A stretch of DNA of 64,000 nucleotides, taken from NCBI GenBank assembly GCA_015489815.1, contig WFZA01000016.1, forward strand, positions 1-64,000. Reading direction: 5' to 3'. This stretch comes from Caldisericales bacterium. Lineage in GTDB: Bacteria > Caldisericota > Caldisericia > Caldisericales > Caldisericaceae. The notes under the pieces were generated by a model. That model had not been told where the DNA came from. It worked only from the letters and a program-made list of their open reading frames with translations, and did not search any database. This document shows positions 30,652 through 34,894 of the stretch, one piece after another (the stretch's first letter is position 1; each line of letters begins with the position of its first letter). The position numbers and the translations under genes are program-made.

Positions 30652-32874
30652 CTATTTTTCCCAATACCAGTACTGTGCGTTCCAGGTACTTGGAGTTACA
30701 GCACTAATCGGGAAGTCGAAACCAACAAGGCCTTTGCGGATAACAGTAACTGCAACATGGAAGTTCAGGTAAAGCTCTGGAAGTTGATCGTAAACGATTG
30801 CTTGAATCTTCTTGGATGCTTCAATTCTGACTTTCGGATCAACAGAGTCATTACAAATAGTTGTCCACTTGTCAAGTTCTGCATTCTTAATTCTCGTAAA
30901 GTTCTGGCCTGCATAACCATTTGCTTTAGTAGGAATCTGTGAAGAGTTGTAAAGTGTATAAGAGCAAATATCTGCAGGATCAGATCCCCATGCAAACAGA
31001 GCGCCCTGGAAGTTTCCTGCATACCAGTCGTCAATCATTGGTCCCCAGTTCTTAGGAACATAATTCGTAGTAATACCAAGGTTCATCTTCCAGTAATGCG
31101 ACATAAATTCTATCTCTTGCTGGCGGACTGCATAACCCTGTGGTCCTTCAATATTAAGAACGACTTTCTCTCCATTAGGAGCAATTAAGTTACCATCTTT
31201 ATCCCAGGTGTAACCCGCAGATTTTAGGATAGCTTTTGCTTTTGCTGGATCATACGGATACTTACCAATGTTTGCCTTGTTGAACGCCGCAAAATTCGTA
31301 GGAATAGGACCGTAGCAGAGTGGCCTCTTGCCCATAAAGATCTTATTAGACATTTCTTTTCTATCAAGTGCAAACATCAATGCTTTACGCAGATGAATGT
31401 CTTTAAGGAACTTGTCAGTAAGGTTCAAAGTAACATGTTCCCAGTAAACAGACGGAATGTAGTAGATGTTGAATGTTTTTGTTAAGCCATTCTTCTCTGC
31501 TGCTGCTGCCTGAGGAATATCGATTCCGATTCCAGGAACAGCACCGTCGAGTTTACCTGCCATAAGCTGCATAAGCATTGTATTGGTGTTAGGTGTGAAG
31601 TAGAAAATGAATGTATCCAGAAGTCCCTGGCCTGCCCAGTAGTTCGGGTTTCTCTTTAAGATGATGTAGTTTCCTCTTGACCAATCTGCAACTTCATACG
31701 GACCACTGTAAACTGGATGCTCATTAAAGTCACAGGAATTAATGTTTGCAGGATTCTTATCAAAAATTGGCTTTAAGATGTGTGCAGGATAGACACCTGC
31801 GCCTGCAACACCGTACTGTGCCCAAATCGAAAGCTGCTTCCAGTATACGATAATTGTATACGGATCTGGAGTTTCGATTTTTGCAACTTTATCTGCTACA
31901 TCTCTCGATGTAACCTGAACTTTGTTGTTCTCTGTCATCTTCCACGCAAATACATAATCCGCTGCGGTAACAGGCTGGCCATCCGCCCACTTAACGCCTT
32001 TTCTTAACTTCCAGATCGTTTTCATCGTGTGGGCTTTTTCGTTGATAATCCATGTGCCATTTGCCTCAGAAGGAATGTACTTTGCTTCTACAGGATAAAG
32101 TTTACCAGAAGGAAGAGTTGCAGCTTCACCTTCTGCAACAGGTCCAAGAATTTCGTACATCGTCATACTCGAGTCAAGTGCAGTAAACAATGTTTTCGGC
32201 TCTTCGGACACTGCATAAGCAAACTTTCCACCTTTTACAGGTGGCTTAAGAATCATGTAAATAGAATATGCACATTCCGCCCTTGTCGCAGGATCTCTCG
32301 GCCTGATGTTTCTATTGCTATCCCACTTGAGAAGCTGGTATGAAGGCCTAACTGCAAGAGTCATTGCGCCCTTTGCCCAGGAATCTACTTTATCTTCGTC
32401 GTTTGAGAATGTTGCAAAGATTAAGTTAGGATCATTTGCTTCTTTTTCCTTGCCAAGCACTCTAATCTCAAGAACAGCAAGCTGCTCTCTCGTGATTGGA
32501 TCTGCAGGTCCAAACTTACCGTTGCCATAACCCTTAATGTAACCTGCTTTTACTGCTGCCTCTACATAACCATAGGACCAACGAGATTTTGGTACATCTG
32601 TAAATGTAGGAGTTGCAGGTTTGTAAAGTTTAAGGCCTTTTGCAACAACGATCATTTTTGCGAATTGCTCACGCGTTACCTTTGCTTCAGGTTTGAATGT
32701 CCCATCCGGGAATCCTTTAATAACGCCTTTACTCACAAGATAATCAATCTGTTTTTTTGCCCAGTAATTTGCCGGGACATCAGGAAAACCTGCTGCACTT
32801 GCTGGTGCAGGTCTCACTGCAAAGAATACAAGCACCATTGAAAGTGCTAATACGACTGCTAATAACTTCTTCAT
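30652..32874 (-). CDS. SLH-domain oligopeptide-binding protein (OppA fusion)
   Basis: The 740-residue exported protein begins with a signal peptide cut after ASA (residue 27), carries S-layer homology repeats at about 29-81 (FPDVPANYWAKKQIDYL) and 89-140 (FTDVPKSRWSYGYVEAA), a divergent third at 155-210, and then a family 5 solute-binding domain (~215-740). It contains no lipobox, so the SLH domains replace the usual lipid anchor and would bind the cell-wall polymer. It heads oppBCDF and has a strong AAAGGAGG site. No unambiguous sigma-A promoter was found in the 88 nt upstream; read-through from the sigma-factor genes is possible. Confidence 0.92.
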   Translation of the reverse strand: MKKLLAVVLALSMVLVFFAVRPAPASAAGFPDVPANYWAKKQIDYLVSKGVIKGFPDGTFKPEAKVTREQFAKMIVVAKGLKLYKPATPTFTDVPKSRWSYGYVEAAVKAGYIKGYGNGKFGPADPITREQLAVLEIRVLGKEKEANDPNLIFATFSNDEDKVDSWAKGAMTLAVRPSYQLLKWDSNRNIRPRDPATRAECAYSIYMILKPPVKGGKFAYAVSEEPKTLFTALDSSMTMYEILGPVAEGEAATLPSGKLYPVEAKYIPSEANGTWIINEKAHTMKTIWKLRKGVKWADGQPVTAADYVFAWKMTENNKVQVTSRDVADKVAKIETPDPYTIIVYWKQLSIWAQYGVAGAGVYPAHILKPIFDKNPANINSCDFNEHPVYSGPYEVADWSRGNYIILKRNPNYWAGQGLLDTFIFYFTPNTNTMLMQLMAGKLDGAVPGIGIDIPQAAAAEKNGLTKTFNIYYIPSVYWEHVTLNLTDKFLKDIHLRKALMFALDRKEMSNKIFMGKRPLCYGPIPTNFAAFNKANIGKYPYDPAKAKAILKSAGYTWDKDGNLIAPNGEKVVLNIEGPQGYAVRQQEIEFMSHYWKMNLGITTNYVPKNWGPMIDDWYAGNFQGALFAWGSDPADICSYTLYNSSQIPTKANGYAGQNFTRIKNAELDKWTTICNDSVDPKVRIEASKKIQAIVYDQLPELYLNFHVAVTVIRKGLVGFDFPISAVTPSTWNAQYWYWEK

Positions 32875-32962
32875 AGATCAGTCCTCCTTTCGACTGTAAA
32901 TTTTTTAATGTTAGCAATCCTTTTCATAGGTTGTTTCAGCCTATCACCTCCCCTAATTTATT

Positions 32963-33436
32963 CTATTGAAATATTGCAAATTGGCCAATAGGCCAATACA
33001 GTATAGCACGGTTTTTTTCATTATACAAAATTCGCAATGTTTTTCTGTTCCCAAAATTATAAGAAGCAACTTTTACTATATCGTCGTGTGCATTATTGGA
33101 AGAAGTGTGCACTGGAGCATACAACGCTCCAACCGGCCTGAATAGCATAAAAAACATCAGCAAAGCCGCACTAAGTGCCGTAGAGCTAAATAGAATCCTT
33201 GTAACATTTCTTCGCTCTTTAAATTCTTTCACAAATTTTTTACTTAAATTTCTATATAACCGAGATTTAAACTCAATACTGGCCTTTGACTGCTCTTCCT
33301 TTAAAAAAAGTGATAATTCCACACTTTCCAGGAGATTCTCGTCTCCTTTTACAAATCTATAGTCTGGGGAGGAATCCTTTAGTAATTCCTCTAAAAATTT
33401 ACTAAACTTTTCTTCTTTTTTTATTTGCTTATTCAT
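32963..33436 (-). CDS. Single-pass membrane protein, putative anti-sigma factor
   Basis: This 157-residue protein matches no family I recognise. Residues 1-80 are highly charged and helical (two predicted helices around 4-20 and 35-75), one membrane helix spans ~83-100, and a short external domain of ~55 residues follows, ending GQFAIFQ. No zinc-anti-sigma HxxxCxxC motif is present. The gene overlaps the ECF sigma gene by 8 bp, the standard place and topology for an anti-sigma factor, so that role is inferred from context. Confidence 0.6.
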   Translation of the reverse strand: MNKQIKKEEKFSKFLEELLKDSSPDYRFVKGDENLLESVELSLFLKEEQSKASIEFKSRLYRNLSKKFVKEFKERRNVTRILFSSTALSAALLMFFMLFRPVGALYAPVHTSSNNAHDDIVKVASYNFGNRKTLRILYNEKNRAILYWPIGQFAIFQ

Positions 33437-33998
33437 GCCTCATCTTCTCCTTTACTACATTTCTTAACTTTTGAATTGCCCTAAACTGCAAAACTTTTAC
33501 TGCACCCACACTTTTCCCCATTATGTTTGCAATTTCTTTTAAACTTTTATTTTTAAAGAATCTTAATTCAATCACTTCTCTATATTGCTCTGGCAAATCA
33601 TTAAGTGATGCATTTATTATTTCCTTAATTTCCTCCCTCTCAGCGGTAACATACGGGTCGTCAATAGGAGGATTTAATATAATATTCCACCTTTCTTCAA
33701 AAGGAAGCACAGAAAATCCAGTTTGTTTCCTAAAGTAGTCCCTTACCACATTCCTCTCTATCGTGTACATCCAGACATCCAATCCTCCTTCAAACCGCTC
33801 CTCAAAATTTCTGAATCCTTTCAACGCCTTTAAAAATGTCTCTTCAGTAATATCTTCTGCATCAGATCTATTTTTCACCTTACGATAAGCATACTTATAT
33901 ACCTTTTCAAAAAATCTCTCGTAAAATTCTTTAAAAGCGCCTTCCTTACCATTAACGATGTCCTTTACAAGCGCTATGTCGCTTTTGTATCTTTTCAC
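33429..33998 (-). CDS. ECF-type RNA polymerase sigma factor
   Basis: The 189-residue protein has sigma region 2 (AFKEFYERFFEKVYKYAYRK, NRSDAEDITEETFLKALKGF, residues 19-68) and region 4 (LPEQYREVIELRFFKNKSLK, EIANIMGKSVGAVKVLQFRA, ~128-175), without regions 1 and 3. GTG 33998 is chosen as start because AGGTGA lies just upstream. A candidate ECF promoter directly upstream suggests it drives its own gene. The 8-bp overlap with the downstream membrane protein links the two. Confidence 0.93.
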   Translation of the reverse strand: MKRYKSDIALVKDIVNGKEGAFKEFYERFFEKVYKYAYRKVKNRSDAEDITEETFLKALKGFRNFEERFEGGLDVWMYTIERNVVRDYFRKQTGFSVLPFEERWNIILNPPIDDPYVTAEREEIKEIINASLNDLPEQYREVIELRFFKNKSLKEIANIMGKSVGAVKVLQFRAIQKLRNVVKEKMRHE

Positions 33999-34010
33999 TT
34001 ATCACCTATA

Positions 34011-34038
34011 TAAACGCATAATTTTGAAAAAGGTTACA
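34011..34038 (-). promoter_or_regulatory. Candidate ECF-sigma autoregulatory promoter
   Basis: Minus-strand TGTAAC (34038-34033) and CGTTTA (34016-34011) are separated by 16 bp. This matches the general ECF pattern (TGWAAC, 16-17 bp, CGTnnn) known from Bacillus SigW/SigX-type promoters, and it sits between the hlyD-like stop and the sigma gene. No comparable sigma-A pair was seen there. Confidence 0.6.
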
Positions 34039-34039
34039 C

Positions 34040-34894
34040 TTATTCATTAAAAATTTCATTTTCTTTTACGAGATGCGGAGTTTCCACGACAATTAGAGTT
34101 GTCTCTTCTACATTAACATTGGCGAGCAGATAACCACCGTGTAATCTATACATTTTTGCAGGCAGAAATTTTATAATACCATTCTCCACAATAAAAATTC
34201 CTTTTTTGCCGTTACAAACAGCTACCGTAGAGGTTTTTATTTTAACGCCTTTCTTAAATCCATTAAGCATTTCAAATGTATTCTTATTTATAAAGTATTT
34301 TAGGAATTCGTTGCCCGAAAAAATGGTATAGCCTTTCCCTGTATACATCCAATGAAGTGGAAAAGTAATTCCATTCAGATAAATATAAACAACCTGCTGT
34401 TTGTAATGTCCCTCCAAACTAACAAAAAAATTATCATTATTAATAATAGAGCAAACTATCTCGTTCTTATGGACGAATCCTTTATTCCAATCAAATTGTA
34501 TTTTAGAAGGAGACTTTAAAAAATTTTGTATAGAGCCTATGTATTTGTTAAATTTACCCCACACAATTAATCCCGAAGACGGAGTAACCAGATCCACAGT
34601 GTATTCGTCGTTTACTACCCTACCAACAACATCACCTTTATTAACAAAACTATAATTTCCAACGAGCCTTTCAATTTTTCCGTCCATCGAAGCATACACA
34701 GGCTTTGCAATAAACACCACACTGCCTTTAGCAGTAGTATAAACCGGATACAAGGCAACTTTTTTATTCATTACCCTGACACGAGTACTTTTTAGAAACC
34801 CGTGAAACTGAGCAAGCGCAGAAATTATAAGAAAGAAACTAAGTAGTAAAAGTATAATTCTTGCTGCTGCTCTTCCGAATGAAAACTCATTCAT
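34040..34894 (-). CDS. HlyD-like membrane-anchored protein of the division cluster
   Basis: A 284-residue protein with one N-terminal membrane helix (residues ~10-30) and an external portion. Residues ~60-115 (VYASMDGKIERLVGNYSFVN, KGDVVGRVVN, VTPSSGLIVWG) resemble the biotinyl-lipoyl-like half-motifs of HlyD/membrane-fusion proteins, and 140-150 and 250-284 add beta strands. Related proteins occur near sepF or ftsZ in some clostridia and deep-branching bacteria, with unknown function. It lies 6 nt after ftsZ in the same unit. Confidence 0.6.
   Translation of the reverse strand: MNEFSFGRAAARIILLLLSFFLIISALAQFHGFLKSTRVRVMNKKVALYPVYTTAKGSVVFIAKPVYASMDGKIERLVGNYSFVNKGDVVGRVVNDEYTVDLVTPSSGLIVWGKFNKYIGSIQNFLKSPSKIQFDWNKGFVHKNEIVCSIINNDNFFVSLEGHYKQQVVYIYLNGITFPLHWMYTGKGYTIFSGNEFLKYFINKNTFEMLNGFKKGVKIKTSTVAVCNGKKGIFIVENGIIKFLPAKMYRLHGGYLLANVNVEETTLIVVETPHLVKENEIFNE

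Follow-up and report, generated by a model that had tools for sequence, protein, structure and literature searches.

The window, by which we mean the whole stretch of 64,000 nucleotides that was analyzed, comes from a MAG (78% complete, 1.29 Mb) of the Caldisericaceae, a hot-spring family. Its reverse strand carries an ECF sigma factor gene and, overlapping it by 8 nt, the gene of a small membrane partner. The features of the locus, in the direction of transcription, are the following.

34040 to 34894, reverse strand: gene for an HlyD-like membrane protein, upstream of the sigma gene and 6 nt after ftsZ; conserved neighbor
34033 to 34038, reverse strand: -35 element TGTAAC, invariant in 17 genomes
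34011 to 34016, reverse strand: -10 element CGTTTA, CGTNTA in 17 genomes, with a spacer of exactly 16 nt in all
34001 to 34007, reverse strand: Shine-Dalgarno-like AGGTGAT, which in the window begins 3 nt downstream of the -10 element
33429 to 33998, reverse strand: ECF sigma factor gene, 189 aa, GTG start, with regions 2 and 4
32963 to 33436, reverse strand: putative membrane anti-sigma factor gene, 157 aa, with orthologues in 17 genomes
30652 to 32874, reverse strand: gene for an SLH-domain oligopeptide-binding protein (OppA-like), downstream of the partner; conserved neighbor and possible target

Of 18 Caldisericaceae genomes, 17 have a close orthologue of the sigma factor, and these 17 also have the partner. 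Wherever the assembled contig extends far enough, the genes follow one another as ddl-ftsQ-ftsA-ftsZ-HlyD-like-sigma-partner-oppA-oppBCDF, and the pair, its overlap, and its place are conserved in all 17 genomes that include the region. The sole exception (G009, 75% complete) is also missing ftsZ, and we therefore attribute the absence of the pair to assembly. The pair had originally been described as inserted between the division cluster and the peptide transporter; since all 17 genomes share the same order, a recent insertion is ruled out and the arrangement dates to the ancestor of the family.

The gap between the partner and oppA measures 88 nt in the window and 12 nt in genomes resembling C. 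exile, and no terminator-like site was found in it. Within this gap (32875 to 32962, reverse strand), a strong ribosome-binding-site-like sequence, GGGAGGTGAT, directly follows the stop codon of the partner and occurs in some form across the family; in some genomes a short lysine-rich reading frame follows it and ends near the start of oppA. We considered a short ORF in this gap, preceded by a ribosome-binding site of its own, but rejected it, as no recognized start codon is common to all genomes.

In other families of the Caldisericota, ftsZ is often followed by genes which, from reading their sequences, we take to be HlyD-like, YggS/YlmE-like, and SepF-like. In three of these genomes, G037, G021, and G051, the next gene encodes an ECF whose small partner contains cysteine; L256, L258, and L262 show this arrangement after the ftsZ/SepF genes. 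Orthology of the sigma factor studied here with these sister-family ECFs was rejected (p-AU 0.004). They do not group with it. Across the phylum, ECF genes thus recur close to the 3' end of the division cluster, while the ECF itself and the type of partner differ.

The sigma factor and its membrane partner

The sigma protein matches Sigma70_r2 (residues 25 to 93) and Sigma70_r4 (residues 132 to 180) with 50.8 and 56.6 bits, respectively, against Pfam cut-offs of 24. Regions 2 and 4 are its only ones, and the linker between them is shorter than 50 residues; this architecture, together with a promoter bearing AAC in the -35 and CGT in the -10 element at its own gene in 17 genomes, corresponds to group IV (ECF). 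The closest solved structure is that of BldN (6dxo), and the best NCBIfam match is the BldN equivalog TIGR02952, with 129.1 bits; as this lies below the curated cut-off of 206.45, membership of the BldN family was dropped.

As originally predicted, the partner has a charged N-terminal half, a single membrane helix, and a short outer domain, and it lacks a zinc-anti-sigma motif. A helical cytoplasmic domain (approximately residues 1 to 80, with 35 charged residues) precedes the best hydrophobic segment at residues 81 to 99 (mean Kyte-Doolittle value 2.15), which is flanked by five K/R on its N-terminal side and one on its C-terminal side, in the positive-inside sense. The outer tail of about 58 residues ends, in most genera, in a conserved YNxxNxxILYWPxGQFxxxQ. 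In the C. exile-like genomes (g7), the hydrophobic segment is weak (1.1 to 1.6) and contains charges, so that it may not span the membrane there. The HxxxCxxC motif is absent from all 17 orthologues, which excludes the zinc-binding class I (ZAS) by sequence; the partner in the window contains no cysteine at all, as is the case for 13 of the 17. A search of Pfam and NCBIfam with the protein from the window gave no match even at an E value of ≤1, and neither a FecR domain nor DUF5667 was found in it with Pfam.

The partner is the less conserved of the two proteins, with a mean pairwise identity of 31% among orthologues against 55% for the sigma factor, and faster evolution of the partner than of its sigma is the usual pattern of anti-sigma factors. 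Between two species of the genus, dN/dS amounts to 0.08 for the sigma factor and 0.15 for the partner (32 synonymous and 25 nonsynonymous changes), the latter value indicating purifying selection and thus a real gene. Structures modeled with AlphaFold for the full-length partner and for its N-terminal part were weak (mean pLDDT 59 and 67). They place, at low confidence, three cytoplasmic helices (residues 5 to 19, 33 to 46, and 54 to 85 in the shorter model) before the membrane helix, and Foldseek searches with both models retrieved no similar solved structure, with nothing at an E value of ≤0.001. The known fold of non-zinc class I anti-sigma domains consists of a bundle of three helices and a fourth helix.

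The promoter and its occurrence in the genomes

The sequence TGTAAC-N16-CGTTTA, which had been proposed as an ECF promoter directly upstream of the sigma gene, is indeed found at 34038 to 34011 on the reverse strand, and its core is kept in 17 genomes. The stop codon of the preceding gene lies 1 nt away on one side, and the start codon of the sigma gene follows after 12 nt on the other. AAC in the -35 element and CGT in the -10 element are hallmarks of ECF promoters (PMC8103513). Anchored on TGTAAC, the invariant columns read AGTGTAAC.TTT..........T.CGT.TATA across 17 genomes of eight genera. Because these columns are fixed while the rest of the spacer varies, chance is not a plausible explanation, and we regard the promoter as real by conservation.

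The distance from the -10 element to the sigma start codon is 12 to 13 nt in 15 of the 17 genomes. The annotated ATG of G004 follows it by 6 nt, and the annotated start of G008, which may be misplaced, by 1 nt. Transcripts from ECF promoters usually start 6 to 8 nt after the -10 element; given the position of AGGTGAT, an mRNA initiated at this promoter would begin inside the ribosome-binding site, placing AGGTGAT at or within the predicted transcription start.

The genomes were scanned with the strict pattern TGTAAC-N15-17-CGTNTA and a reversed-pattern control. In all 17 of them the scan recovered the promoter of the sigma gene, and this was the only site to recur: the other matches were single, scattered, and no commoner than in the control, and no second site recurred across genera when two mismatches were allowed. 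An invariant promoter core with no other recurring strict site points to a narrow apparent regulon. We thus deem the protein to be an ordinary, probably autoregulated ECF factor, if one with an unusually narrow apparent regulon. That it was an autoregulated ECF sigma had been predicted, and the invariance of the promoter strongly supports this, with autoregulation following by inference from the conserved promoter, since reading its own promoter is the normal case for such a factor. In G008, AGTAACTTTTT..ACGTTTA (AGTAACTTTTTCC..ACGTTTA; L126:1501-1527) lies about 17 nt before the gene of a secreted NHL-repeat-like protein, a possible second target of the sigma factor.

Another ECF-like element, [TC]GRAACTTTTT-N11-CGTCTA, is abundant in the genus and accounts for the excess of two-mismatch matches in G000 and G001. 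It occurs in 14 copies in the former genome and 31 in the latter, was not found in the reversed control, and is embedded in about 60 nt of conserved sequence (examples from the two genomes are L190:473, L190:2294, L191:12213, L193 (-):9720, and L198 (-):1694). Of the genes that follow it, 29 of the 35 assigned encode a hydrophobic N terminus, being secreted or membrane proteins, and the set reads either as a large regulon of envelope genes under a different ECF or as a dispersed promoter repeat. Both hexamers of the element are unlike those of the promoter studied here, and we therefore did not assign it to this sigma factor. The sequence TGGAACTTTTT-N11-TGTCTA was observed within the final codons of a different ECF gene (L074:4639-4666 on the reverse strand, G000:C42:12638-12665), where it directly precedes the start of the downstream membrane protein of that ECF; the second promoter family may be read by this ECF.

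It is improbable, in our opinion, that TGTAAC-CGTTTA is read by a different ECF, the sigma gene being a slave in a cascade and not autoregulated: the genome does encode other sigma-70 region-2 proteins, at least three more of them ECF-like, and the second promoter family (TGRAAC-CGTCTA) exists, but the element occurs once per genome and always at this sigma gene, and no similar site lies upstream of the paralogues examined.

Relationship of the partner to anti-sigma factors

Three classes of anti-sigma factors and their binding modes have been described (PMC7406223). Class III was inspected because BldN is the closest solved relative of the sigma factor and because related ECFs of the Chloroflexota carry DUF5667 partners. 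It is possible, though we hold this only tentatively, that the partner is a diverged, RsbN-like member of this class minus the DUF5667 outer region, with the sigma factor as a distant ECF of the BldN group; such an assignment would refine the membrane anti-sigma reading and not oppose it. Besides the match to 6dxo and to TIGR02952, in the nearest relatives from the Chloroflexota (L021 and L023) the downstream partner carries DUF5667, a tree joining the sigma factor with DUF5667-paired ECFs is not rejected (p-AU 0.385), and one collinear hhalign match of the partner to an alignment of such domains reaches an E value of 0.004. However, this last signal includes the membrane helix; once the helix is removed, the score falls to the shuffle level (11.3, against a maximum of 11.75 in column-shuffled controls), and the link to RsbN thus does not reach significance. 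Moreover, the TIGR02952 score is 129 against a cut-off of 206, the partner has no DUF5667, a region that does not strictly define the class, and the computed tree fails to unite the sigma factor with the DUF5667-paired ECFs.

Outside the family, the partner profile matched the N termini of two proteins of 369 and 384 aa (E values of 1.2e-4 and 7e-4) in G051, a genome of another class of Caldisericota. Both are encoded directly downstream of ECF genes and overlap them, hhalign comparison with the partner gave a probability of about 91% for both, and one of them has a weakly LolA-like outer region (E value of 0.18). The same N-terminal domain beside different ECFs and with different outer regions is what is expected of an anti-sigma domain. 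Among 386 genomes, no credible member of the profile was found besides those of the Caldisericaceae and G051; a weak match in G134 proved to be a short RNA-polymerase-omega-like protein, and another in G263 has stops in frame.

The recurrence of this domain in G051 also bears on two alternative roles of the partner: that of a positive co-regulator, and that of a small, unrelated membrane protein that is simply cotranscribed. The partner matches no anti-sigma domain in sequence or fold, but it overlaps the sigma gene and is order-locked with it in 17 genomes, has the topology of an anti-sigma factor, and shares its N-terminal domain with ECF neighbors having a different outer domain, and we consider such a role very unlikely. 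On the basis of the constant overlap, the topology, purifying selection, and the N-terminal domain beside other ECFs of the phylum, the two proteins are deemed a putative sigma/anti-sigma pair, as first proposed. The suggestion of a new or strongly diverged class is likewise sustained, with no match in Pfam, NCBIfam, or PDB and with the RsbN link not significant. Judged from sequence, no described family appears to match the partner; the overall layout of the pair is familiar. The best reading is a new, lineage-specific variant of the membrane anti-sigma/ECF switch, which would drive the operon it belongs to and perhaps the peptide transporter as well.

Proposed switch and comparison with known systems

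Taken as a whole, the locus probably encodes an ECF sigma factor with a single-pass membrane anti-sigma factor, forming a signal-released and self-amplifying switch. At rest, the sigma factor would be kept at the membrane by its partner through the helical domain on the cytoplasmic side. A signal from the envelope would act via the short outer tail, and release would probably involve cleavage by an RseP-like M50 protease, as the genome encodes a member of the site-2-protease family PF02163 (M50; E value of 2.3e-53). The free sigma factor would then read the one TGTAAC-N16-CGTTTA promoter, yielding more sigma factor and more inhibitor. Transcription probably continues into the operon opp of the S-layer-anchored oligopeptide transporter, since the gap contains no terminator-like site and shrinks to 12 nt in the C. 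exile-like genomes. Against this reading, a sigma factor with a single genomic promoter site has a narrow output, the AlphaFold models are weak and without a Foldseek match, and the hydrophobic segment is weak in g7.

We find it rather unlikely that the N-terminal domain of the partner is structurally new and represents an anti-sigma class confined to the Caldisericota, with the sigma factor as a one-promoter switch coupling the division operon to peptide uptake. The same low expectation applies to a further part of that proposal, namely, that the self-initiated mRNA is near-leaderless and that read-through from ftsZ supplies the full ribosome-binding site. If its fold is new, the domain would extend the list of anti-sigma classes, of which three are known. 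With a clean pair and a fully conserved promoter, the partner, the signal, and the output are directly testable, and with ftsZ and opp as neighbors, a link of division, envelope state, and peptide uptake can be tested as well. In the library of papers searched, none on sigma/anti-sigma signaling in Caldisericum was found.

Among known systems, surface signaling of the FecI-FecR-FecA type likewise combines a sigma factor and a membrane regulator, followed by a transport system. Here, instead, there is no FecR domain match and no TonB receptor, and the transporter is an S-layer-anchored OppABCDF whose coupling to the switch is suggested by gene order only. BldN-RsbN and the DUF5667-paired ECFs provide the closest solved sigma factor and, as here, a single-pass membrane partner without zinc, whereas the Caldisericaceae partner has no DUF5667 and a profile similarity at control level, and its sigma factor scores far under the BldN cut-off. 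Class I pairs such as SigW-RsiW, RpoE-RseA, and SigK-RskA share with the present one a membrane partner gene directly after the sigma gene, an AAC/CGT promoter with a T-rich spacer start at the sigma gene, a single membrane helix, a helical cytoplasmic domain, and an RseP-type protease in the genome. Unlike them, the Caldisericaceae pair has a partner with neither the zinc motif nor detectable similarity in sequence or fold to class I domains, and it is further set apart by its one strict promoter site per genome and its location beside the division cluster.
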